Assembly: GCA_002723385.1 (NCBI GenBank) | Contig: PBNY01000016.1 | Location: 1 to 61,704, forward strand | Direction of reading: 5' to 3' | DNA length: 61,704 bases | Source of the DNA: Oceanospirillaceae bacterium | Lineage (GTDB): Bacteria > Pseudomonadota > Gammaproteobacteria > Pseudomonadales > Oceanobacteraceae | Shown: piece after piece, positions 8,022-61,417 of the stretch | Position numbering within the stretch: position 1 is the stretch's first letter | Layout: each line of letters begins with the position of its first letter | Notes under the pieces: model-generated | What the model saw: the letters and a program-made list of their open reading frames with translations, nothing else | Told to the model about the DNA's origin: nothing | Database searches by the model: none | Made by a program: the position numbers and the translations under genes

Positions 8022-9233
8022 ATGCGTCGAGTGGTGGTTACAGGTATTGGTATCGTCGGTTGCCTCGGTAATAACAAAGAGGAAGTACTGACGTCTTTGC
8101 GCGAGCAGCGTTCCGGCATCAGCCATATCCCGGAATACGAAGAGCTGGGCATGCGTAGCCACGTTGCCGGTCGTCCAAATATCGACCTGGACGAGCACAT
8201 TGATCGCAAGCTGAAGCGTTTCATGGGCGATTCCGCAGCCTACTCTTACCTGTCCATGAAAGAAGCCATCGAAGACGCTGGCCTGCCTGAAGAAATGGTA
8301 AGCAACACGCGCACCGGTCTGGTTGCGGGTTCTGGTGGCGCGTCTACCAGCGATATCGTTGAGTCCGTGGACATCGTTCGTTCCAAGGGTATTCGCCGTG
8401 TTGGCCCTTACCGTGTAACCCGTACCATGGGTTCAACGGTTTCTGCCAACCTGGCAACGCCGTTCAGTATCAAGGGCGTTAACTACTCAATGACCTCTGC
8501 CTGTGCCACCAGCGCTCACTGCATCGGCCACGCCATGGAGCTGATCCAGTGGGGCAAGCAGGACATCGTTTTCGCCGGTGGTGGTGAAGAAGAGCACTGG
8601 TCACTGTCTCTGCAGTTCGACGCCATGGGCGCACTGTCCTCAAAATACAACGACACTCCGGAAACAGCTTCCCGTGCCTACGATGCAAACCGTGACGGTT
8701 TCGTCATCGCTGGCGGTGGCGGCATGGTGGTTCTGGAAGAATATGAGCACGCTGTAGCGCGTGGTGCCAAGATCTACGCTGAAGTGGTTGGCTACTCCGC
8801 GACTTCAGATGGTGCAGACATGGTTGCTCCGTCTGGTGAAGGCGCAATCCGCTGCATGCGCGACGCACTGGAGATGGCTGGTAACCCAACCATCGACTAC
8901 CTGAACACCCATGGCACCAGCACCCCGGCCGGTGACATCACCGAACTGAAAGCCGTTGGCGAAGCCTTCGGTGACAACGTGCCACCGATCAGTTCGACCA
9001 AATCACTGTCTGGCCACTCTCTGGGCGCCGCTGGCGTGCAGGAAGCCATTTACTGCCTGTTGATGCAACAGGACGGATTCATGATTGGCAGCGCCAACAT
9101 TTCCGATCTGGATGAAGGTGCTGAAGGCTACCCGATCCTGCGTGAAAACCGCGATGCCGAACTGAAAACTGTAATGTCCAACAGCTTTGGATTCGGTGGC
9201 ACCAACGCCACGCTGATTTTCAAAGCCCTTTAA
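8022..9233 (+). CDS. fabB: 3-oxoacyl-ACP synthase I (KAS I)
   Basis: 403 residues, full family length. The catalytic triad of condensing enzymes is intact: Cys161 in [11 protein letters not shown], His in [12 protein letters not shown] (near residue 296) and His in SGHSLGAAG (near residue 331). The start [11 protein letters not shown] and the [12 protein letters not shown] end are typical of FabB rather than FabF. It condenses malonyl-ACP with acyl-ACP, including the cis-unsaturated branch. The usual partner fabA is not adjacent. Instead, the next gene is a giant acyl-CoA carboxylase that could supply malonyl-CoA, a suggestive pairing. Confidence 0.93.
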
Positions 9234-9242
9234 TGGACACCC

Positions 9243-9320
9243 GTGTCAGATGGCCAATAGCCATCTGACACACAGCCATGGCCCTGCTTCGTTGTCATCT
9301 GATGGCAACGAAGCGGGGCC
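9243..9320 (+). other. Two consecutive strong hairpins between fabB and the carboxylase
   Basis: Hairpin 1: GTGTCAGATGGC (9243-9254), 5-base loop, GCCATCTGACAC (9260-9271), 12 perfect pairs. Hairpin 2: GGCCCTGCTTCGTTG (9280-9294), 11-base loop, CAACGAAGCGGGGCC (9306-9320), 15 pairs including one G-U. Neither is followed by a T-run, so they are not canonical intrinsic terminators. They could protect the fabB mRNA 3' end, attenuate read-through, or terminate weakly. The loop of hairpin 2 (TCATCTGATGG) echoes the stem of hairpin 1. Confidence 0.6.
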
Positions 9321-9386
9321 TTGGCGCATTTGAATACCGAGCTTCAGGCTACTACGACTATCGACAGATTACGGAATCCACCAATC

Positions 9387-12300
9387 ATGTCAGAACAAGC
9401 ACCCAAGCAAGTCGATCAGCTCTTTCAGGTTGCTGAACAACTTTCTGCAGATTTTTCCCTGTTCCCCGATTACGAAGAAAACGCCATTGATCAAACCGTC
9501 AAGGGTTTGATTTCGCCTGAAATGTGCGGCACCGAACTGGCCCGTTTGAGCGAGCTGAACATTGACGAATACATTCAGCAAGTCGTCGCTCCCAGTGAAA
9601 GCAATACCCGCCCAGGCGCAAAAACCATCGTTCAACATCTGATTCTGCGTGTCATCACAGAAGTTGACGACGGCCCACTGTACTGTGCAGAAGCCGATAT
9701 GGACTTTAATGGCCGTATCCGTCGCGTTGGTTTTGTGTGTCAAAACCGCGAACACGCCAACGGCGTATGGGGGCCAACCCATCACAACCGTGCAGCCCAG
9801 CTGGTGCGTGAATACGCCCGTCGCTCTATGCCGATCGTGACCTTCATCGATACTCCGGGGGCAGACGCTGGCGAAGACGCCAACGCCAATAACCAGGCCC
9901 ACTCCATTTCTCACCTGATCACCGAGATGGCGAACAACGACGTACCATCTCTGGGGATTATCTGGGGTGCTGGCTACTCCGGCGGTGCGATTCCACTGGC
10001 AGCCACCAACATCCTGCTGAGCGTTCGTGACGGTATTTTCAATACCATCCAGCCACAGGGTCTGGCCAGCATTGCCCGCAAGTACAACCTGTCCTGGCAG
10101 GAATGCGCCAAGTACGTCGGTGTTTCCGGCTACGAACTGCGCAAAGCCGGCATTATCGATGGCATCATCGATTACGCACCGACCGACGCTGACGAAAAAC
10201 GCATCAACCTGCATGAGGCCATCGTTTCCGGTCTGCAATCCATCGAAACCAACGCCGGTGAGTTCGCACGCAGCACCCCGTACCTGATGGAACACTATCA
10301 GCGTGGTATCGAACGCTTCCTGTCGCCATCCGACAAGCTGGAAAAGCTGGAAAAAGAATCCAACTTCTTCCTGGCGGAAAACCCGACCGAACACAACAAC
10401 CTGTTCGGCCTGACCTACCGCTACCTGCGTTACCTGACCATGCGTCGCCGGATTCACTCCAGCAGCATCGAGAACTACGGTCGTCTGGCAGAAAAAGAGG
10501 TACCGGAAGGTCAGCTGCAGCAACGCATGCAGCGTGAAGCCAAACGCAAGTTCCAGGGCTGGTTGCAGGCGCCGGAAAAGATCGTTTACGACGACACTCT
10601 GCACCGCAGCTGGAAGAACTTCTGGGCCAAGTACGAAGATCGTGACGAAAGCCGCTCCAGCATCGCCAAGCTGTTCTTCGGTGAGCCGAAAGACAACTAC
10701 GTCAAGTCCAAGCAGGAACTGTGTTTTGACCTCGGTCTGTACCTGTTCAACCGCTGGAAATCCGATGCAGCGATGAACTTCCACGGTCTGCTGGATTATC
10801 TGGACGACTACAAGCAGACCCGTTTCCTGCTGCGTGCCAACGATATTCTGGACACTGCGGCGGTTGCTGATTTCATCGAGAACAACGAGCATCCTCTGGC
10901 ATCTTTCATCCGTGAGCACCTGCCGTACGACGTGCGTCAGCAGCTGACTGAAAACATGGAAAAAGAACAGTCTCGTGGTTCTCTGAAACAGACGCTGGCG
11001 TCGGCTCTGAACGCCATCATGAAAGACAACACCATCCCGGACGATGTATTGTCCGAGCTGAAACTGTCGAGTCGCACCGAATCCCTGATCAACAGCGTTG
11101 CCAGTGCCAAGGTTGAGGCCAACCGTCGCGTGCTGGAAGAGTCTCTGGCGCCTTACATCCAGTTCCGTCAGGAAAACATTCAGGATCCGGCACACCCGGA
11201 CATCACCATTCTGGATGCTATCCTGCACGACGAATTGCGCGTCGAGTTCACCCAGGTGTGTCACAACATGCTGGTGTTTGGTCAGCTGTACGACAACTTC
11301 ATTGCCAACCTGGCCAACGTTGCGAAAGAAGCCAACGAATCCCGCAGCCTGTCTGAAACGGCGCTGAAGTCGCTGCTGGAAAAATCCCTGTCAGAAGCCA
11401 CCGATGGCGACAGCTACACCGAGCAAGAACGCGAATCCTTCAACCACTGGCTGAGCTACTTCATCAAGAGCAGCCAGCGTGGTGACTTCCTGAAGTCGGT
11501 TGAAGAATGGAAGAAGCTGGCATTCCCGCGTCTGTCCGACACGCTGTTCGTGGTCATAACCTTCATCTTCGAAAAACTGCTGCCGGAATTCCATGCCGCC
11601 GAACAGGATGGCAAAGCCTATAACGGTCGCATCAACCCGGTATCCATCGGTCGTCGTAAAGACTTCTGGAACCGTCTGACCATGGCCTACCACGATCTGC
11701 AGATTCAGCAGGTTCTGGATGACACCAAGCGTCAGAAGAAAACCTCAGCGTCTGCCGTGATCGAACGCTTCTTCAGCGACTTTGAAGAGCTGAACAGCAG
11801 CCTGATGTCTGCCGACCCGGTTGGCTTCCCCGGCTTCCGTGGCTCCATCGAAGGTGCCCTGAAGAAAGAAATCAAGCCATGCGGTGTGATCACCGGTATC
11901 GGTACCATCCGTATCGGTGAGCGCGAACAGCAGGTTGGTGCACTGGTTTCCAACCTGGATTTCCAGGCCGGTGCCTTCGATATGGCTTCAGCCGAGAAAT
12001 TCGCCAAGCTGATGGTGGAATGTGCGCGCCAGCAATTGCCGATTGTGTGCTTCGTATCTTCCGGTGGGATGCAGACCAAGGAAGGCGCAGCTGCCCTGTT
12101 CTCCATGGCAGTGACCAACGACCGTATCACCCGTTTTGTGCGTGATAACGATCTGCCGATGGTGATCTTCGGCTTCGGTGACTGTACCGGTGGTGCGCAG
12201 GCGAGCTTCGTGACTCATCCGCTGGCACAGACCTACTACTTCTCTGGCACCAACATGCCATTTGCCGGACAGATCGTTGTTCCGTCGTACCTGCCAAGCA

Positions 12301-14273
12301 CCTGCACCCTGTCCAACTATCTGTCGGTATCTCCGAAATCAATGGACGGTCTGGTTGAACATCCGTTCTTCCCGGATCTGGACGATCGCCTGCGTGCCAT
12401 TGACCCGGATATGCCAGTTGCCCGTCACACCGTTGACGATGTACTGGATCGCGTTCTTCAGGGTTACGTCAACGCTGAACGTCTGGTGCCTGATACAGGC
12501 AAAGGCGCGACTGCAGCGAAGAAATTCGGCTCCATCGACAAGGTACTGGTTCACGCCCGTGGCTGTACCGCCGTGAAGCTGATCCGCAAGGCACAGGAAA
12601 ACGACATCAAGGTGGTTCTGGTGCAATCCGACCCGGATATGGATTCCGTACCGGTGGATATGCTGGGACCTGAAGATCGCGTGGTGTGTATCGGTGGTAA
12701 TACCCCGGACGAATCCTACCTGAACGCCAAGTCGGTTCTGCGTGTTGCACACCACGAGCAAGTGGATGCCCTGCACCCGGGCATTGGCTTCCTGTCCGAG
12801 AGCAGCCAGTTCGCCGCTCTGTGTGGCAACCACGACATCAACTTTGTTGGCCCGGCGGTTTCTTCCATGGAAACCATGGGGAACAAGTCCAACGCCATTA
12901 ACACCGCCATGCGTGTTGAAGTGCCGGTTGTACCAGGTTCTCACGGTATTCTGACCAGCTCGGCCAATGCCGCTGCCGTTGCCGATGAAATCGGCTATCC
13001 GGTGCTGTTGAAAGCCGTACACGGCGGTGGTGGTAAAGGCATTCAGGTTGTTCACAGCTCCGACAAGATGCACACCCTGTTCCACCAGATCTCCACCGAA
13101 GCCAAGGCCGCGTTTGGCAACGGCGACGTGTATCTGGAGAAATTTGTGACCTCTCTGCGTCACATCGAGATTCAGGTGCTGCGTGATAGCCACAGCAACA
13201 CCAAGATTCTGGGTCTGCGTGATTGCTCGGTACAGCGTAACAACCAGAAGATCTTCGAAGAATCCGGTTCCACCATGCTGCCACGCGAGCTGGAGCAATC
13301 CGCCTACGACTACGCAGCCAAGCTGGCGGATGCGGTCGACTACGTCGGTGCCGGTACGGTGGAATTCATCTTCGACCTGGCTTCCAACGCCATCTACTTC
13401 ATGGAGATGAACACCCGCCTGCAGGTAGAGCACCCGGTAACCGAACTGGTATCTGGCATCGATATCGTCAGCAACCAGTTCCGTATCTCGGCTGGCGACT
13501 CCATTGCCGACCTGAAGCCACATTCCAAAGGCTACGCCATTGAAGTGCGCGTTAACGCTGAAAAAGCGGTCATCAAGGGTGATGAGCTGTCATTTGTACC
13601 GACACCAGGCAACATTCGCGAATGCGTACTGCCGGAAGAGAACTACATTGAGCTGATCTCCATGGCGGCGGCTGGCAAGCAGGTGTCACCGTTCTACGAC
13701 AGCATGGTCACGCAGATCATCTGTTACGGTAAGGATCGTAACGACACCATTGCCAAGCTGCGTGATTACCTGGATCGCGTCAAGATCACTGGCGTGTGCA
13801 CCAACATTCCGTTGCTGAAGCGCGTACTGGATGATGAAGTCTTCCAGAATGGTGTGTACGACACAGGTTACCTGCCAGCCTTCCTGGATCGCATTGATCT
13901 GGATGAGCTGATCAAGGACATCGAAGAAGCGGCCGACCTGGCCTCCAACGCCGTTGATGCAGAAGCTCTGAAGATTGAAGGCTCTGACGAACTGAAAGTT
14001 CTGTCTCCGTCCACCAGCATCTTCTACGGCTCCTCTTCACCGTCCGAGCCAGCCTTTGTCAAGGAAGGCGATGTCATCGACGTCGAGCACACCCTGTGTC
14101 TGATGGAAGCCATGAAGATGTTCACGCCTCTGAGCCTGAAGCAGTTCAACCGCACCGGTGCCGAGCTGTATCCGGCGGATCAGAAGTTCAAGGTGACCCG
14201 AATCATGAACACGGACGGTCAGCAAGTGAACCAGGGCGACCTGCTGTTTGTGGTCAAGCCGATTGCTGAATAA
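9387..14273 (+). CDS. Single-chain acyl-CoA (acetyl-CoA-type) carboxylase with AccA-AccD-BC-BCCP parts
   Basis: 1628 residues from the ATG at 9387; a TTG 66 bases upstream overlaps the hairpin zone and is unlikely. Residues about 70-285 are AccA-like (FIDTPGADAG, GAGYSGGAI, then a P-x-G-x-ASI pattern). Residues about 290-810 are helical and match no domain I know. Residues about 815-1010 are AccD-like (GAFDMASAEKF, SSGGMQTKEGA, GDCTGGAQASF) but lack the AccD zinc finger. Residues about 1045-1495 are biotin carboxylase, with the ATP-grasp loop GGGGKGIQ and catalytic EMNTRLQVEHPVTE intact. Residues about 1535-1628 are a biotin carrier with MEAMKM, biotinyl Lys1577. All catalytic modules of acetyl-CoA carboxylase are therefore in one chain, with alpha preceding beta, the reverse of eukaryotic ACC and PccB. 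It probably makes malonyl-CoA or a longer carboxylated acyl-CoA. No stop or frameshift is seen. Confidence 0.85.
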   Translation: MSEQAPKQVDQLFQVAEQLSADFSLFPDYEENAIDQTVKGLISPEMCGTELARLSELNIDEYIQQVVAPSESNTRPGAKTIVQHLILRVITEVDDGPLYCAEADMDFNGRIRRVGFVCQNREHANGVWGPTHHNRAAQLVREYARRSMPIVTFIDTPGADAGEDANANNQAHSISHLITEMANNDVPSLGIIWGAGYSGGAIPLAATNILLSVRDGIFNTIQPQGLASIARKYNLSWQECAKYVGVSGYELRKAGIIDGIIDYAPTDADEKRINLHEAIVSGLQSIETNAGEFARSTPYLMEHYQRGIERFLSPSDKLEKLEKESNFFLAENPTEHNNLFGLTYRYLRYLTMRRRIHSSSIENYGRLAEKEVPEGQLQQRMQREAKRKFQGWLQAPEKIVYDDTLHRSWKNFWAKYEDRDESRSSIAKLFFGEPKDNYVKSKQELCFDLGLYLFNRWKSDAAMNFHGLLDYLDDYKQTRFLLRANDILDTAAVADFIENNEHPLASFIREHLPYDVRQQLTENMEKEQSRGSLKQTLASALNAIMKDNTIPDDVLSELKLSSRTESLINSVASAKVEANRRVLEESLAPYIQFRQENIQDPAHPDITILDAILHDELRVEFTQVCHNMLVFGQLYDNFIANLANVAKEANESRSLSETALKSLLEKSLSEATDGDSYTEQERESFNHWLSYFIKSSQRGDFLKSVEEWKKLAFPRLSDTLFVVITFIFEKLLPEFHAAEQDGKAYNGRINPVSIGRRKDFWNRLTMAYHDLQIQQVLDDTKRQKKTSASAVIERFFSDFEELNSSLMSADPVGFPGFRGSIEGALKKEIKPCGVITGIGTIRIGEREQQVGALVSNLDFQAGAFDMASAEKFAKLMVECARQQLPIVCFVSSGGMQTKEGAAALFSMAVTNDRITRFVRDNDLPMVIFGFGDCTGGAQASFVTHPLAQTYYFSGTNMPFAGQIVVPSYLPSTCTLSNYLSVSPKSMDGLVEHPFFPDLDDRLRAIDPDMPVARHTVDDVLDRVLQGYVNAERLVPDTGKGATAAKKFGSIDKVLVHARGCTAVKLIRKAQENDIKVVLVQSDPDMDSVPVDMLGPEDRVVCIGGNTPDESYLNAKSVLRVAHHEQVDALHPGIGFLSESSQFAALCGNHDINFVGPAVSSMETMGNKSNAINTAMRVEVPVVPGSHGILTSSANAAAVADEIGYPVLLKAVHGGGGKGIQVVHSSDKMHTLFHQISTEAKAAFGNGDVYLEKFVTSLRHIEIQVLRDSHSNTKILGLRDCSVQRNNQKIFEESGSTMLPRELEQSAYDYAAKLADAVDYVGAGTVEFIFDLASNAIYFMEMNTRLQVEHPVTELVSGIDIVSNQFRISAGDSIADLKPHSKGYAIEVRVNAEKAVIKGDELSFVPTPGNIRECVLPEENYIELISMAAAGKQVSPFYDSMVTQIICYGKDRNDTIAKLRDYLDRVKITGVCTNIPLLKRVLDDEVFQNGVYDTGYLPAFLDRIDLDELIKDIEEAADLASNAVDAEALKIEGSDELKVLSPSTSIFYGSSSPSEPAFVKEGDVIDVEHTLCLMEAMKMFTPLSLKQFNRTGAELYPADQKFKVTRIMNTDGQQVNQGDLLFVVKPIAE

Positions 14274-14313
14274 TTGGCTGATCACTCTCCAGTGATTCTG
14301 ATATCTGGATCAT

Positions 14314-14345
14314 GAAAAAAACCGGCACTTGCCGGTTTTTTTTGT
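14314..14345 (+). terminator. Intrinsic terminator of the carboxylase gene
   Basis: An A-run is followed by ACCGGCA-CT-TGCCGGT and a run of eight T (14336-14343), 41 bases after the carboxylase stop. The symmetric A/T flanks would let it work in both directions. Confidence 0.9.
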
Positions 14346-14380
14346 CATACCAAAGTCAATGCTTTTGGCGACCAGAATCG

Positions 14381-14409
14381 TTGACCTGTTTACAGCGCCA
14401 CCGTAAGGT
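14381..14409 (+). promoter_or_regulatory. Sigma-70-type promoter candidate
   Basis: TTGACC (14381-14386), a 17-base spacer, then TAAGGT (14404-14409). It lies between the terminator of the carboxylase gene and the start at 14495, so it is well placed to drive the unknown membrane-anchored protein as its own unit. Confidence 0.5.
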
Positions 14410-14494
14410 TAGGCGCATACAGAGGTACCGCACAGACCTCTCCCGGATTAATAACGATGGCCTTAGACAGGCCCTGATAAAAAGGAAGAAGCAA

Positions 14495-15166
14495 ATGATG
14501 AAATTCATCGCTGACGTTTTCTCGATGGACGACGCACAATTCAAACGCACTGAATTCGTCGTCAAGTACTCAGTACTGGCTGTAGTGGGTCTGTGGACCC
14601 TGCTGATTGCCACTGGTTGGGTCAGCAACAAGAGCGAAGAGCTGGAACTGGCTCAGAAAGAATACGAACTGGAAACGACCCGTCTGGGTAGCGAAGGTCT
14701 GTATCCAAAAGCTCTGACTGATCTGAGCGTCAAGACTGACAACGCTCTGTGGGGCGAAAGCAAGGATCTGTGTACCATCACTGGTCAGTACACCATTGAA
14801 AACATCGGTGGCTTCCCAATCTACGTCAGCGACGTAGAGTTCACTGTTTACGAACTGGAACCTCTGACTGAAGGCGATCTGCAGGGTAAAGAAGTGGCTT
14901 CTTTCTCTCTGGCGTCCCGTCTGGAAAGCGCTGCTCCTCTGTTCTCTGAAGAAATGGAAGTTAAAGAAAACATCACCACCAGCAATCGTCTGGAGCGCTC
15001 TTTCGGCTACGTAGTTAAAGTCAAGGAAGGCGCACTGTACACCATCAAGGCCAGTGCCAACGGTGGTATCCCAAGCGGCAAGAAAGAAATGTCTGCACTG
15101 TCTGTGTTCTCCAAGAACGACCTGACTCACATCTCCGGTTCTCACCGTATTTGTACTGGCAGCTGA
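14495..15166 (+). CDS. Unknown single-pass membrane-anchored protein
   Basis: 223 residues from an ATG-ATG start with a strong AAGGAAG upstream. An apparent longer reading frame begins inside the preceding terminator and is rejected. One transmembrane helix (YSVLAVVGLWTLLIATGWV, about residues 28-46) is followed by a short Glu-rich helix and a beta-rich domain of about 150 residues that probably lies in the periplasm. A Cys pair (KDLCTITG and HRICTGS) could form a disulfide. Codon use is strongly biased to common codons, suggesting high expression. It is bracketed by its own promoter candidate and terminator, so it is monocistronic. I do not recognise the family. Confidence 0.7.
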   Translation: MMKFIADVFSMDDAQFKRTEFVVKYSVLAVVGLWTLLIATGWVSNKSEELELAQKEYELETTRLGSEGLYPKALTDLSVKTDNALWGESKDLCTITGQYTIENIGGFPIYVSDVEFTVYELEPLTEGDLQGKEVASFSLASRLESAAPLFSEEMEVKENITTSNRLERSFGYVVKVKEGALYTIKASANGGIPSGKKEMSALSVFSKNDLTHISGSHRICTGS

Positions 15167-21551: not shown

Positions 21552-23690
21552 TCAGAAAAAACGTTTGCCGTTTTCGGCCATTTCACGGACGCCATCAGTC
21601 ACCTGATACAGCGGTCCCTGGTCTGCGTGGGCTTCAACCTGCGCCGCGAACGTTGCCGCGCCTACGGTATCGATGTGACGCAGAGCGCCACCGCGGAAAC
21701 GCGGGAAGCCCAGACCCAGAATCAGGCCCATGTCCGCTTCGGCAGCGGTATCGACAATGCCTTCTTCCAGACAGCGAGCGGTTTCCAGACACATTGGAAT
21801 CATCATGCGTTCGATGATTTCAGCGTCGGTCACTTCCACGTTGCGGCTCACGCGCTGTTCCAGAATCGCGGAGACTTTCTCGGAGCGACGCTTGAAGCGC
21901 TTGCCGTTCTCGTCCTTGCCGTATTCATAGAAACCAACCCCGTTCTTCTGACCCAGCGCGCCTTGCTCCAGCAGGGTTTCAATCACAGGGCGGTCGGTGT
22001 GGCCCATACGCTCAGGGAAGCCTTCTTCCAGTACGCGGTCAGCGTGAACCATGGTGTCGAGACCGATCACGTCAGCCAGATAAGCCGGGCCCATCGGCCA
22101 GCCGAATTGCTCCATCACCGCGTCGATGCGCTCAAAATCCACACCGTCCATCAACAAGCGGTTGAAGCCGTTGAAGTATGGGAACAGCACGCGATTCACC
22201 AGGAATCCAGGACAGTCGCGCACAACAATCGGGGTTTTGCCCAGCGTGGCCGCGTAGGCCACTGTGGTGCCAATGGTTTCATCGCTGGTCTTCTCACCGC
22301 GGATGATTTCCACCAGCTGCATGGCGTGAACCGGGTTGAAGAAGTGCATGCCACAGAACTGCTCTGGACGCGCCAGACTTTCTGCCAGCAGGTCGATAGA
22401 AATCGTCGAGGTGTTGGACGCCACGATGCTGGACGAAGGAACCTTCTGCTCAACTTCAGACAGCACAGCACGTTTTACATCAACACGCTCAACCACCGCT
22501 TCAACCACGTAATCAACACTGTCGAAACCTTCGTAGGTCAGCTCAGGCTGAATACCCGCCAGGATTTTCTCCTTGCCTTCTTCGGTCATGCGGCCCTTGC
22601 TGATGGAGCGATCCAGAATGCTGCCCGCCGTGCTCATGCCCAGATCCAGCGCTTCCTGGGTAATGTCTTTCATGCGAATGCCAACACCGCTCAGGGACGA
22701 CTGGTAGGCAATGCCGCCACCCATGATGCCAGCCCCCAACACGGCGGCTTGCTTGACCTCGGCCCCCTGCTTGGCCCAGCCACGGGTTTTCTTCTTCACG
22801 ACCTGATCGCTCAGGAACAGACCCACCAGATTTCTGGCCTCAAAACCGATGGCCAGTTCGCTGAAGCAACGGGCTTCAATCGCAATGGCCTCAGCGAATG
22901 GCTTGTCCATCGCTTCGGTGACACTGTTCAGAATCGATGGTGCTGCCGGGTAACGAGGGTCCAGACGCTTGCCAAACTGGGCACGCGCAGCGGCCATCGC
23001 AGCCGCCGTTTCTTCACCGGATGCCATCGCAGCCTGCTTGGCAGCGCGACGCGCCATGTAATCGCGTTCGCCATCAATGGCTTGCTGCAATACAGCGCGG
23101 GCTTCTTCCATCAGATTCTCAGGCTCCGCAACCGCATCTACAGCGCCTTGTTCCAGCGCCACAGCGGCTTTGACCGGCTTGCCGGTCAGCATCCAGCTCA
23201 GACCGGCTTCAGCACCAATCAGACGCGCCAGGCGCACCGTGCCACCCCAGCCTGGACAAATACCCAGGTTCACTTCAGGCAGACCCAGTTTCGCCTTGCT
23301 GTCAGTCACACGCAGGTCGGTTGACAGCGCCAGCTCCATACCGCCACCCAGCGCCATGCTGTTCACAGCAGCAACCGTTGGGTAAGGCAGGTTTTCGATG
23401 GTATCCAGCAGCGTGTGCACGCGACCGGCCCATTCGACGATGGCGTCAGCGTCCAGATCAAACAGGGCCGTAAATTCAGTAATGTCCGCACCCAGTACGA
23501 ACGCAGGTTTGGCGCTGCTCAGCAACAAGCCTTTCACACCGTCAGCAGCCGTCAGGGCCGCCAGAGCCTGACCCAGTTCATCCTGCAAGTGGGTGTTCAT
23601 AACGTTGACAGACGCTTCAGCAGCGTCCAGAACCAATTCAGCAATACCGTTTTCAGCAAGCGTCAGCGTGACGGATTTTCCTGCGTACAT
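21552..23690 (-). CDS. Bifunctional enoyl-CoA hydratase / 3-hydroxyacyl-CoA dehydrogenase (second FadB paralogue)
   Basis: 712 residues. The N-terminal crotonase domain has GADITEF and the two catalytic Glu regions ALGGGMELAL and GLPEVNLGICPGWGG. The C-terminal dehydrogenase has the NAD motif [15 protein letters not shown] near residue 320, the [11 protein letters not shown] loop and catalytic His in [17 protein letters not shown]. It catalyses steps two and three of beta-oxidation. It is shorter and clearly different from the canonical FadB at 47158-49317, so the genome carries at least two sets. It lies between thiolase and acyl-CoA dehydrogenase on the same strand. Confidence 0.93.
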   Translation of the reverse strand: MYAGKSVTLTLAENGIAELVLDAAEASVNVMNTHLQDELGQALAALTAADGVKGLLLSSAKPAFVLGADITEFTALFDLDADAIVEWAGRVHTLLDTIENLPYPTVAAVNSMALGGGMELALSTDLRVTDSKAKLGLPEVNLGICPGWGGTVRLARLIGAEAGLSWMLTGKPVKAAVALEQGAVDAVAEPENLMEEARAVLQQAIDGERDYMARRAAKQAAMASGEETAAAMAAARAQFGKRLDPRYPAAPSILNSVTEAMDKPFAEAIAIEARCFSELAIGFEARNLVGLFLSDQVVKKKTRGWAKQGAEVKQAAVLGAGIMGGGIAYQSSLSGVGIRMKDITQEALDLGMSTAGSILDRSISKGRMTEEGKEKILAGIQPELTYEGFDSVDYVVEAVVERVDVKRAVLSEVEQKVPSSSIVASNTSTISIDLLAESLARPEQFCGMHFFNPVHAMQLVEIIRGEKTSDETIGTTVAYAATLGKTPIVVRDCPGFLVNRVLFPYFNGFNRLLMDGVDFERIDAVMEQFGWPMGPAYLADVIGLDTMVHADRVLEEGFPERMGHTDRPVIETLLEQGALGQKNGVGFYEYGKDENGKRFKRRSEKVSAILEQRVSRNVEVTDAEIIERMMIPMCLETARCLEEGIVDTAAEADMGLILGLGFPRFRGGALRHIDTVGAATFAAQVEAHADQGPLYQVTDGVREMAENGKRFF

Positions 23691-45955: not shown

Positions 45956-49317
<3,362 letters not shown>

Positions 49318-49483
49318 CAACAGATCTCCCAGTGGATGTTGGCTGGTTAACGACTTTCAGACCTGGAAAGTCACTGATTAATCATGGACGGGTTAGCAAC
49401 AGAAAAACGGCTGACAGGCTCGACGCCAGTGGAGTTGGCGTGTTCTGCGTTCTGATTACCGATTTTTTATTGTTATCTCGTCT

Positions 49484-53231: not shown

Positions 53232-54272
53232 ATGAAACGAGCAACTACCCTGCTGTTAGCCCTGCTACTTTCCACGCCTGCCCTTGCTAAAGACGATTTC
53301 AAAATCTGCTGGTCGATTTATGTTGGCTGGATGCCCTGGGCCTATGGTGCAGAGCAAGGCATCGTCAAGAAATGGGCAGACAAGTACGACATCAATATCG
53401 AAGTGGTGCAGATCAACGACTACATCGAGTCCATCAACCAGTACACCGCTGGCGGATTCGATGCCTGCACCATGACCAACATGGACGCGCTGACCATTCC
53501 TGCCGCCGGTGGCGTTGACAGCACCGCTCTGGTGGTTGGCGACTTCTCCAACGGTAACGATGGCGTTGTACTGAAGGGCAAAAAGTCGCTGAAAGACGTC
53601 AAGGGCCAAACGGTTAATCTGGTTGAGCTGAGTGTTTCTCACTACCTGCTGGCCCGTGGTCTGGACAGCGTGGGTCTGAAAGAAGCCGACATCAAGGTCG
53701 TCAACACTTCCGACGCCGATATGGTTGCCGTGTATGGCACCGACGACGTGACCGCCGTTGCCACCTGGAACCCGCTGTTGAGCGAAATCACCTCCATGCC
53801 GAACAGCTACAAGGTGTTCGACTCCTCGCAAATCCCGGGTGAAATCATCGACCTGTTGGTCGTCAACACCGACACCCTGGCGGCCAATCCCAAACTGGGT
53901 AAAGCCCTGGTCGGCGCCTGGTATGAAATCATGGCCACCATGAGCAAGAACGACAAAATGGGAACCGCAGCCCGTGACTACATGGCGGTTGCTTCCGGCA
54001 CGGATCTGGCCGGCTACGACGCTCAGTTGGCCAGTACCGAAATGTTCTACGCCCCGGCTGATGCCCTGAAACTGACCAACAGTCAGGATCTGGTGACCAC
54101 CATGAAGAACGTGGCGGAATTCTCCTTCGACCACGGTCTGCTGGGTGACGGCGCTCCTGATGCTGGCTTCATCGGTATCGAAATGCCTGCCGGTGTCTAC
54201 GGCGACAAGGGCAACATCAAGTTCCGCTTCAATCCTGAATACATGCAGATGGCCGCCGACGGCAAGCTGTAA
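53232..54272 (+). CDS. Guanidine-operon ABC substrate-binding protein
   Basis: 346 residues with AGAGG upstream. Signal peptide (TLLLALLLSTPALA), then a NrtA/SsuA-like fold: FKICWSIYVGWMPWAYGAEQGIVKKWADKY. Trp residues at VGWMPW probably shape a cationic pocket. The protein is the first gene after the guanidine-I riboswitch and is followed by a cognate permease and ATPase. Databases commonly call it a urea-carboxylase-linked transporter, but the riboswitch makes guanidine the more likely ligand. Confidence 0.88.
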   Translation: MKRATTLLLALLLSTPALAKDDFKICWSIYVGWMPWAYGAEQGIVKKWADKYDINIEVVQINDYIESINQYTAGGFDACTMTNMDALTIPAAGGVDSTALVVGDFSNGNDGVVLKGKKSLKDVKGQTVNLVELSVSHYLLARGLDSVGLKEADIKVVNTSDADMVAVYGTDDVTAVATWNPLLSEITSMPNSYKVFDSSQIPGEIIDLLVVNTDTLAANPKLGKALVGAWYEIMATMSKNDKMGTAARDYMAVASGTDLAGYDAQLASTEMFYAPADALKLTNSQDLVTTMKNVAEFSFDHGLLGDGAPDAGFIGIEMPAGVYGDKGNIKFRFNPEYMQMAADGKL

Positions 54273-57721: not shown

Positions 57722-60700
57722 ATGTTTACCAAAGTCCTGATTGCGAACCGTGGTGCCATTGCAACCCGCATCATCCGCACTCTGAATACAATGAACATCG
57801 CCTCGGTGGCGGTGTACGCTGAATGTGACGCCGACAGCCTGCATGTCCGCCTGGCTGACGAAGCCTTCTCGTTGGGAGCAGGCGCTGCGGCAGACACCTA
57901 TCTGAACATGGACAAATTGCTCGACATCGCCAAACAAACCGGTGCCGAAGCGATTCATCCGGGGTATGGCTTCCTGAGCGAAAACGCCAGTTTTGTTGAG
58001 CATTGCCAGCAAGCAGGCATCCGCTTTATCGGCCCCACACCCGAACAAATGCGTGTATTTGGCCTCAAGCATCAGGCGCGTGAACTGGCCCAGAACGCCA
58101 AGGTTCCCCTGCTGCCCGGCACCGAATTATTGACCTCACTGGACGAAGCCCTCAGCGCCGCTGCCGGGATTGGTTACCCGGTGATGTTAAAAACCACCGC
58201 GGGTGGTGGTGGCATCGGCATGCAGCTGTGCCACAACAACGACGAACTGAGCGCCGCTTTCGACAGTGTCAAACGCCTCGGGGCCAACAACTTCTCCGAC
58301 GACGGCGTCTTTCTGGAAAAATTCATCGCCCGCGCCCGTCATATCGAAGTGCAAATGTTTGGTGACGGCCAGGGCGTGGCCGTCGCTCTGGGCGAACGCG
58401 ACTGCTCCAGCCAACGCCGCAACCAGAAAGTGGTTGAGGAATGCCCGGCTCCGAACCTCAGCGACGACATCCGCCAACAGCTCTACGCCACCGCCGAAGC
58501 CTTGCTCGCCAGCGTCCACTACGCCAATGCCGGTACGGTGGAATTTATCTACGACGCTGACACCAGCCAGTTCTATTTCCTCGAGGTGAACACCCGCTTG
58601 CAGGTCGAACACGGCGTCACCGAAATGGTGTACGGCGTTGATCTGGTCGAATGGATGTTGCGTCAGGCACACAGCGATCCAGCCATTGAGCCACTGCCAC
58701 TGCGTGAGATGGCCAATCAGCTGTCCGCCTTGGGACATGCGATTCAGGTGCGCTTGTACGCCGAAGATCCTTACCGCAACTTCCAGCCCTGTGCCGGTCT
58801 GCTCAGTGAAGTGGCCTTCCCCCAGGGGGGCGGTATTCGCATCGATCACTGGATTGAATCCGGCCTGGAGATTCCGCCCTATTTCGATCCTATGCTGGCC
58901 AAGGTGATTGTTCATGGACAAGGCCGTGAACAAGCGTTAGACAAACTATTCAACACGCTTTGTGAGACTCGTCTGTACGGCAGTGAAACCAATCTGGATT
59001 ACCTCAAGGCGCTGCTGCAAGACGAGGTGCTGCAACGTGGAGAAGTCACCACTCGATACCTGAACGAGTTTGTCTATCAGCCGTCCAGAATCGACGTATT
59101 GCAAGGCGGCACCCTCACCAGCATTCAGGATGCCTTTGGCCGTGGTGGCTACTGGCATGTGGGCGTACCGCCATCCGGGGCTTTTGACAGCGTGTCTCTG
59201 CGCTTGGCCAACCGCCTGCTGGGTAACGATGAAAACGCCGCCGGTCTGGAAATCACCTTGCAAGGGCCGCAGCTGAAGTTCAGCAGCGACACATTGATTG
59301 TATTAGGCGGAGCCGAGATCGACGCTCAGCTGATTGATGATCAAGTTCACTCTCAAACTCAGAAAACAGTTCCCATGTGGCAGGTTGTGAAAGTGACTGC
59401 CGGACAGACTCTGTCGCTGGGTCGTATCAAGGATCAAGGCGCACGGGCGTTTCTGTGTGTAGCGGGCGGTCTGGCCTCACCGGATTATCTCGGTTCTCAG
59501 GCGACCTTCACGCTGGGTCAGTTTGGTGGTCATAACGGTCGTGCGTTACGCACTGGCGACGTGTTGCGTCTGTCGGCCTCAGCCTTGGACCCACAAACCA
59601 CAAGCACAACCGCCGGACAAACCCTGCCTGATGAGCTGCAACCGGAGATCAGCAATAACTGGCAATTACGAGTGATCTACGGCCCTCATGGCGCGCCGGA
59701 TTTCTTCACCGATGGTGACATCGACACCTTCTTCGACCACGACTGGGAAGTGCATTACAACTCCAGCCGCACCGGCATTCGTCTGATTGGCCCCAAGCCC
59801 GACTGGGCACGTACCGACGGTGGTGAGGCGGGTTTACATCCGTCCAATATTCACGACAACGCCTACGCCTTTGGCGCGGTGGACTTCACTGGTGACATGC
59901 CGGTGATTCTCGGCCCGGACGGCCCGTCACTGGGCGGTTTTGTATGCCCGGCAACCGTGATCCAGGCGGACTTGTGGAAGCTTGGCCAGCTGCGTGCAGG
60001 AGACAAGATCCGCTTTGTTCCGATTTCCATTGAGGATGCAGTGGCGGCGGAAGCGGCCCGCGATCAGGCAATTCAAACGCTCACCAGCGTTCCTCACACA
60101 ACACCGTCTGTCGAACCTGAAACCCCGATCTTGAAAACATTTGCAGCGGACGAATTCGGCGTTGAGATCACCTGCCGGGCCGCGGGGGATCACTTCCTGC
60201 TGGTCGAATACGGCGAACAAACGCTGGATATTCGTCTGCGTTTCCGCGCCCATGCGCTGATGCAAGCGTTGGAAAAACGTATTGCCGTTAAAGAACTGGA
60301 CGCCAAGGACACAGCACTCTCCGGCATCCGCGAACTGACGCCGGGCATTCGCTCGCTGCAAATCCATTACAACAGCCAGCAGATCGCCGTTGCCGAATTG
60401 CTGCAACTGATTGAAACCACCGAACGCGAGCTGAGCACCCAACTCGACAGCCTCACCGTGCCATCGCGCATTGTGCATATTCCGCTGTCCTGGGATGACG
60501 ACGCCTGCCGTCTGGCGATTGAAAAATACGACCAGTCAGTGCGCAAAAACGCCCCCTGGTGCCCCAGCAATCTGGAGTTTATTCGTCGTATCAATGGCCT
60601 CGACAGCATCGACGACGTCAAACAGATTCTGTTCAGCGCCTCCTATCTGGTGATGGGATTGGGTGACGTGTACCTCGGCGCACCGGTGGCAACACCGGTT

Positions 60701-61417
60701 GATCCTCGCCATCGTCTGGTGACGACCAAATACAACCCGGCCCGCACCTGGACAGCGGAAAACTCCGTTGGCATCGGCGGCTCCTACCTCTGTGTGTACG
60801 GCATGGAAGGCCCCGGCGGCTATCAGTTTGTCGGGCGCACCCTGCAAATGTGGAACCGCTACCGCCAGACCGCCGAGTTTGAACAACCCTGGTTGTTGCG
60901 CTTCTTCGACCAGATCCGCTTTTACGAAGTCAGCCACGACGAACTGCAACAGATTCGCCGTGATTTCCCCCAAGGTCGCTACCCGCTGAAGATCGAACAG
61001 AGCCAGTTCAGCCTGTCGGAATACGAGGTATTCCTGAGTGAACAAGCGGCGGATATTCAGTCCTTCACCACCCAACGCACCGACGCCTTTGCCGCTGAAC
61101 TGGAGCGCTGGCACGCCGACGGTCAGTTCAACTTCACCGCCATCGAAGCCGAAGTCAGCGACACCGAACAAGACTGGCCAGAAGACAGCCTAGTGATGGA
61201 CTCGCCGGTGTCCGGCAGTGTCTGGCAACTGGAAGTGGAAGAAGGCCAAACCGTCGAGGCCGGGCAAACCTTGCTGATTCTGGAATCGATGAAGATGGAA
61301 GTGCCGGTGCAAGCCACCGAAGCAGGCACCGTCACTCATCTGCTCAGCAAAGCCGGACAAGGCGTCAGCGCTGGACAGGCGTTAGTGGTGATCAATCCAA
61401 CCTCAGCCGACACGTAA
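57722..61417 (+). CDS. Guanidine carboxylase (urea-carboxylase-type, biotin-dependent)
   Basis: 1231 residues. Biotin carboxylase spans residues 1-450: IANRGAIATRIIRT, ATP-grasp TAGGGGIGMQ, ERDCSSQRRNQKVVEE and EVNTRLQVEHGVTE are intact. The AHS2/KipA-like half of the carboxyltransferase is at about residues 460-770 (QGGTLTSIQDAFGRGGYWHVGVPPSG split over two motifs), and the AHS1/KipI-like half at about 800-1060. The biotin carrier is C-terminal, LESMKMEV with biotinyl Lys1191. The urea amidolyase family plan without a fused amidase. Riboswitch and CgdAB context favour guanidine over urea as substrate; the active-site residue that separates the two was not checked. Confidence 0.92.
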   Translation: MFTKVLIANRGAIATRIIRTLNTMNIASVAVYAECDADSLHVRLADEAFSLGAGAAADTYLNMDKLLDIAKQTGAEAIHPGYGFLSENASFVEHCQQAGIRFIGPTPEQMRVFGLKHQARELAQNAKVPLLPGTELLTSLDEALSAAAGIGYPVMLKTTAGGGGIGMQLCHNNDELSAAFDSVKRLGANNFSDDGVFLEKFIARARHIEVQMFGDGQGVAVALGERDCSSQRRNQKVVEECPAPNLSDDIRQQLYATAEALLASVHYANAGTVEFIYDADTSQFYFLEVNTRLQVEHGVTEMVYGVDLVEWMLRQAHSDPAIEPLPLREMANQLSALGHAIQVRLYAEDPYRNFQPCAGLLSEVAFPQGGGIRIDHWIESGLEIPPYFDPMLAKVIVHGQGREQALDKLFNTLCETRLYGSETNLDYLKALLQDEVLQRGEVTTRYLNEFVYQPSRIDVLQGGTLTSIQDAFGRGGYWHVGVPPSGAFDSVSLRLANRLLGNDENAAGLEITLQGPQLKFSSDTLIVLGGAEIDAQLIDDQVHSQTQKTVPMWQVVKVTAGQTLSLGRIKDQGARAFLCVAGGLASPDYLGSQATFTLGQFGGHNGRALRTGDVLRLSASALDPQTTSTTAGQTLPDELQPEISNNWQLRVIYGPHGAPDFFTDGDIDTFFDHDWEVHYNSSRTGIRLIGPKPDWARTDGGEAGLHPSNIHDNAYAFGAVDFTGDMPVILGPDGPSLGGFVCPATVIQADLWKLGQLRAGDKIRFVPISIEDAVAAEAARDQAIQTLTSVPHTTPSVEPETPILKTFAADEFGVEITCRAAGDHFLLVEYGEQTLDIRLRFRAHALMQALEKRIAVKELDAKDTALSGIRELTPGIRSLQIHYNSQQIAVAELLQLIETTERELSTQLDSLTVPSRIVHIPLSWDDDACRLAIEKYDQSVRKNAPWCPSNLEFIRRINGLDSIDDVKQILFSASYLVMGLGDVYLGAPVATPVDPRHRLVTTKYNPARTWTAENSVGIGGSYLCVYGMEGPGGYQFVGRTLQMWNRYRQTAEFEQPWLLRFFDQIRFYEVSHDELQQIRRDFPQGRYPLKIEQSQFSLSEYEVFLSEQAADIQSFTTQRTDAFAAELERWHADGQFNFTAIEAEVSDTEQDWPEDSLVMDSPVSGSVWQLEVEEGQTVEAGQTLLILESMKMEVPVQATEAGTVTHLLSKAGQGVSAGQALVVINPTSADT

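Follow-up and report, generated by a model that had tools for sequence, protein, structure and literature searches.

The window analysed here is the whole 61,704-nucleotide stretch of contig PBNY01000016.1 from an Oceanospirillaceae bacterium; coordinates are positions in it, and residues follow the numbering of the 1628-residue protein under study. An accS-type gene at 9387..14273 on the + strand (stop codon included) is assigned from its frame, domain models, Protein Data Bank (PDB) match and homologues to a single-chain acetyl-CoA carboxylase. Judged from sequence, this chain is very probably the only acetyl-CoA carboxylase of the cell, an AccS-type enzyme standing in for the separate AccA, AccB, AccC and AccD subunits (AccABCD). 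Acetyl-CoA carboxylase is essential and is a drug target.

The region 9387-14273 (+) forms one unbroken frame of 1628 residues plus stop. The list of open reading frames starts it 66 bases earlier, with a TTG at 9321, but the ATG at 9387 fits as the start, since homologues such as P0003, P0004 and P0006 are 1626-1629 residues long. Five modules lie in this chain, all on the + strand: an AccA-like carboxyltransferase alpha half (CT-alpha; 9528..10256, about residues 48-290, model match within 112-289), an all-helical middle domain (10257..11771, about residues 291-795), an AccD-like beta half (CT-beta; 11778..12506, about residues 798-1040, TIGR00515 match 798-942), a biotin carboxylase (BC) domain (12534..13880, residues 1050-1498) and a biotin carboxyl carrier domain (13944..14270, residues about 1520-1628, model match about 1520-1624). 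The frame and the models thus confirm what a preliminary description of this DNA had read from the letters, namely AccA-like, AccD-like, BC and carrier modules in that order. Its claim that the carboxyltransferase halves are reversed also holds, since an alignment of the predicted model places its AccA-like half on about residues 284-520, the second half, of two-domain carboxyltransferase chains.

The best match among PDB sequences was 9kkm (with 9w4a), which scored 1899 bits against 348.7 for whichever distinct sequence came next. The record, named acetyl-CoA carboxylase multifunctional enzyme AccADCB (1517 residues), shows the Shewanella oneidensis holoenzyme (mutant E1238A) as a dimer solved by cryo-electron microscopy (cryo-EM); it was released on 2025-11-19. 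The paper behind it was not found in the literature searched, a search that had subscription journals and preprints outside its range. The corresponding gene is accS (SO_0840, 1517 residues; PMC4793157, PMC11602165). In 2016, S. oneidensis was described as having AccS in place of homologues of AccABCD, with an extra AccB listed, and the gene was credited to the 2002 genome paper (PMC4793157). In 2024, AccR was reported as a LysR-type activator of accS, the loss of which slows growth; growth was restored by accS, or by E. coli accA, accD and accBC together, and AccS showed up as a biotinylated band at about 170 kDa (PMC11602165). In the passages of PMC9803151 consulted, the string accADCB appears only in a gene list. 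The window protein is therefore an AccS-family homologue and the family is already described, contrary to the preliminary description, which knew of no characterized enzyme of this plan and, by its own account, would be refuted by a described family.

Homologues with the same order were sought, as the preliminary description had proposed. Of 1587 matches at E<=1e-3, the best 120 were considered; 114 of them span 99-100% of the query, with identities of 55-100% (these include P0002, the window's own protein, to which P0001 is identical), and the remaining six are 1502-1533 residues long. A family alignment of 56 rows was used for diagnostic residues; L016, L025, L026 and L035 were left out as broken, partial or in the wrong frame, and a long frame was missing in L038. 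The biotin-site Lys1577 of the EAMKM motif (14115-14117, +; from motif and alignment) is kept in all 56 rows, as are the BC residues K1288, E1340, N1342, R1344, E1348 and R1388, which we take, from motif matching with the E. coli numbering, to be the catalytic set. Glycines 199 and 200 of the CT-alpha GYSGG motif, of oxyanion type, are likewise kept in 56/56 rows. One of the CT-beta glycines is kept throughout and the other in 54/56 (Ala in L039 and L065). AccD carries a zinc ribbon; a cysteine scan of the window protein found no CxxC, so no ribbon of the AccD type is seen. Across the alignment, one CxxC lies near residue 445 in four rows and one lies in the stretch before the start in two.

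Several side observations were made on these genes. Relative to ordinary carriers, the carrier domain of the window protein is extended beyond the EAMKM site (14109-14200) by additional residues, a feature found family-wide and shorter in L065 and L066. In one bin the accS frame is broken (L016:7884-12365), the match reaching 13206 and the open frame stopping at 12365. In addition, accS-type genes of L032 and L038 sit on contigs binned under the titles Desulfuromonadales and Geopsychrobacter, which may reflect transfer or a binning error.

The distribution of the standard subunits bears on the role of the chain. The preliminary description had asked whether separate accA, accB/accC and accD also exist in the window genome (3.59 Mb, 104 contigs, 90.26% complete); models for accA, accC, accD and the biotin carboxyl carrier protein gave nothing over curated cut-offs in this assembly. 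Below the cut-offs, the models picked up the chain and portions of further biotin enzymes, such as a contig 43 gene and the urea carboxylase at 57722-61417. In an order-level sample of 244 genomes (chain, best E <= 1e-200; accA, over cut-off), the chain was present in 31 and accA in 209; accA was missing from 29 of the 31 chain-bearing genomes, the other two being G006 and G049, and present in 207 of the 213 without the chain. Similarly, in a class-level sample of 369 genomes (chain, E <= 1e-150; accA, E <= 1e-60), five of the six chain-bearing genomes were without accA, the exception being G408; accA occurred in 347/363 genomes without the chain. Fisher tests gave 2e-29 (order) and 2e-6 (class), values that only describe the tables, as the genomes are related. 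The two samples share G000, G020, G035, G036 and G073. Over the 36 distinct chain-bearing genomes, accD (E <= 1e-30) was absent from 33, and the same 33 lacked both accA and accD. Across the sampled genomes, the one-chain enzyme is thus a clean natural replacement for the standard subunits in several branches of a single class, and few genomes keep both.

Since accA and accD are missing, the standard acetyl-CoA step has to fall to the chain unless some unknown enzyme performs it. The substrate might instead be propionyl-CoA or a longer acyl-CoA, with malonyl-CoA coming from another enzyme; this is improbable, and a longer acyl-CoA is unlikely to be the main substrate, given that neither accA nor accD occurs in 33 of the 36 chain-bearing genomes. 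Of the two roles offered in the preliminary description, malonyl-CoA supply for fatty acid synthesis is supported and carboxylation of a longer acyl-CoA is the unlikely one. It is still less probable that the chain is an accessory second carboxylase and that the assembly has missed the four standard genes. The incompleteness and fragmentation of the assembly would allow this, and three genomes (G006, G049 and G408) do carry the chain together with accA and accD; however, accA and accD are also lacking from all eight other genomes sampled in the family, which are 99% complete each and include a single-contig genome (G239). The least credible proposal, that the frame joins separate proteins by assembly error, was ruled out by the whole-length coverage of the 114 homologues. 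The same plan also recurs in 40 loci of independent records (the chain being present in 40/42 loci from named genome records, some on partial contigs) and in the cryo-EM structure.

Several observations nonetheless weigh against the chain as sole enzyme. At 90% completeness and 104 contigs, a gene could be missing from the window genome, and the coexistence in G006, G049 and G408 shows that the chain and the standard subunits are not mutually exclusive. Over its cut-off, the accC model matched five of the 36 chain-bearing genomes, these three together with G075 and G038, which just pass (641.1 and 627.4 versus 626.5 bits); the latter two matches may be other carboxylases. Neither chain nor accA was detected in six genomes of the order sample (from E-values) and 16 of the class sample. 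No LysR gene, and hence no accR, was seen among the 10 open reading frames nearest to the window accS. Further, S. oneidensis retains a separate AccB (PMC4793157). A divergent accR, known from Shewanella and some other genera, is not defining for AccS.

By homology, the BC domain would use ATP and bicarbonate to carboxylate the biotin on Lys1577, and the C-terminal carrier would then swing to a carboxyltransferase site built by CT-alpha and CT-beta. There the carboxyl group would be moved to acetyl-CoA, giving malonyl-CoA for fatty acid synthesis, with FabB encoded by the adjacent gene. In this chain the helical middle domain stands where two separate subunits would meet, and it likely frames the carboxyltransferase halves and the BC domain together. 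The protein is probably a dimer, like the Shewanella enzyme.

The preliminary description had reported about 500 residues between the carboxyltransferase halves that matched nothing known to it. This stands for Pfam, where the stretch gave no family at E<=0.001 and weak matches only (E 0.014-0.18), but not for structures, as the region is present in 9kkm, with no other significant match found; the window protein thus has the AccS-specific helical middle domain. The match to 9kkm covers only residues 9-475 and 603-1627, and the gap indicates a lineage-specific helical insert of about 115 residues within the middle domain (10821..11186, +; about residues 479-600), absent from 9kkm. The region measures 101-134 residues in 38 of the 56 alignment rows and 4-18 in the other 18. 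In a larger set of 176 rows (the best-120 database matches, the window and 55 loci, with duplicates present and loci and proteins overlapping), 156 have the long form and 20 the short one. On a tree of these rows rooted on the most distant pair, L065/L066, parsimony gave four changes from a short ancestor, which fits one gain of the insert and three losses; the node placing P0091 and P0092 has a support of 0.63. P0091 lacks the insert and is 77% identical to the insert-bearing L082, so the loss in P0091 and P0092 appears recent.

No family, PDB sequence or free-standing protein matched the insert, and no paper on it was found in the literature searched; it may be published in journals or preprints outside that search. 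Since relatives without it exist, the insert is dispensable for catalysis in the family. A role in control or assembly is a guess. Tentatively, and with considerable doubt, it could be a detachable regulatory or assembly module, gained once and lost at least three times, that ties the assembly or activity of the carboxylase to a partner such as the FabB encoded alongside. If true, a built-in regulator that can be detached would here be seen for the first time in a bacterial acetyl-CoA carboxylase. P0091 and L082 form a natural before-and-after pair for the effect of an added module on a carboxylase.

The neighbouring fabB noted in the preliminary description was verified as a 3-oxoacyl-ACP synthase I gene at 8022..9233 (+; NF005935, 691.6 bits, cut-off 630), on the same strand as accS and ending 153 bases upstream of its ATG. 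Two hairpin-capable inverted repeats seen by eye lie between the genes (9243-9271 and 9281-9319), neither with a T run and the second permitting one G-T pair; thus, a single fabB-accS transcript is not assured. Of 58 related loci, 24 have fabB directly upstream on the same strand (L005 and L084 being one contig), and most of these 24 share a block further upstream comprising the heptosyltransferase gene waaC, membrane and glycosyltransferase genes and PAP2. The link is lineage-specific, lacking at short-form loci and in other families. No paper on it was found in the same literature search, and it too may be published elsewhere. In G408, which has accA and accD, the accS-type gene (L087:5600-10162) has no fabB adjoining in the stretch fetched.

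A different arrangement occurs in two genomes of family f7, where a divergent chain, 36-37% identical across the alignment, is last in the row fabA, fabB, fabV (enoyl reductase), accS (L065:3695-11610 and L066:7017-14709). An AraC-type regulator gene follows the divergent accS and an acyltransferase gene precedes the cassette, and both genomes also carry accA and accD. The cassette looks like a second, self-contained fatty acid synthesis set. AccS itself is known to specialists; the literature searched yielded neither the insert nor the cassette.

Elsewhere in the window, a 284-codon frame after accS (14312-15166) had no Pfam, NCBIfam or plasmid match and did not recur near accS in the 58 loci. 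Two FadB-type beta-oxidation proteins (21552-23690 and 47158-49320) both score above the PRK11730 cut-off. The urea carboxylase at 57722-61417 (1231 residues, 1824 bits) is accompanied by a urea ABC transporter binding protein at 53232-54272.

Among known carboxylases, the single-chain long-chain acyl-CoA carboxylase 4rcn has its carboxyltransferase C-terminal, the match lying at 850-1073 of its chain. The heteromeric AccA/AccD/AccC/AccB enzyme has the same four catalytic modules, whereas the window protein is one chain, scores far below the curated cut-off of each subunit model and shows no zinc-ribbon cysteines. Eukaryotic multidomain acetyl-CoA carboxylase also carries every module in one chain, but has BC first and the carboxyltransferase last, with the beta-like half ahead of the alpha-like half, so that the window order differs and its carboxyltransferase halves are reversed. 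It was not among the matches listed for the middle domain in the PDB search, a listing that does not amount to exclusion. The difference of the eukaryotic order from AccS has been pointed out before (PMC11602165). The closest counterpart is AccS of S. oneidensis, which shares the domain order, the helical middle domain and similarity over the whole length (1899 bits), and whose genome is likewise reported to be without a standard AccABCD set (PMC4793157). The two differ in length (1628 versus 1517 residues), owing to the insert of about 115 residues at about 479-600. They differ also in that the window genome has no separate AccB over cut-off while S. oneidensis has one (PMC4793157), and in that fabB lies upstream of accS in the window, where S. 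oneidensis instead has the divergent LysR gene accR.
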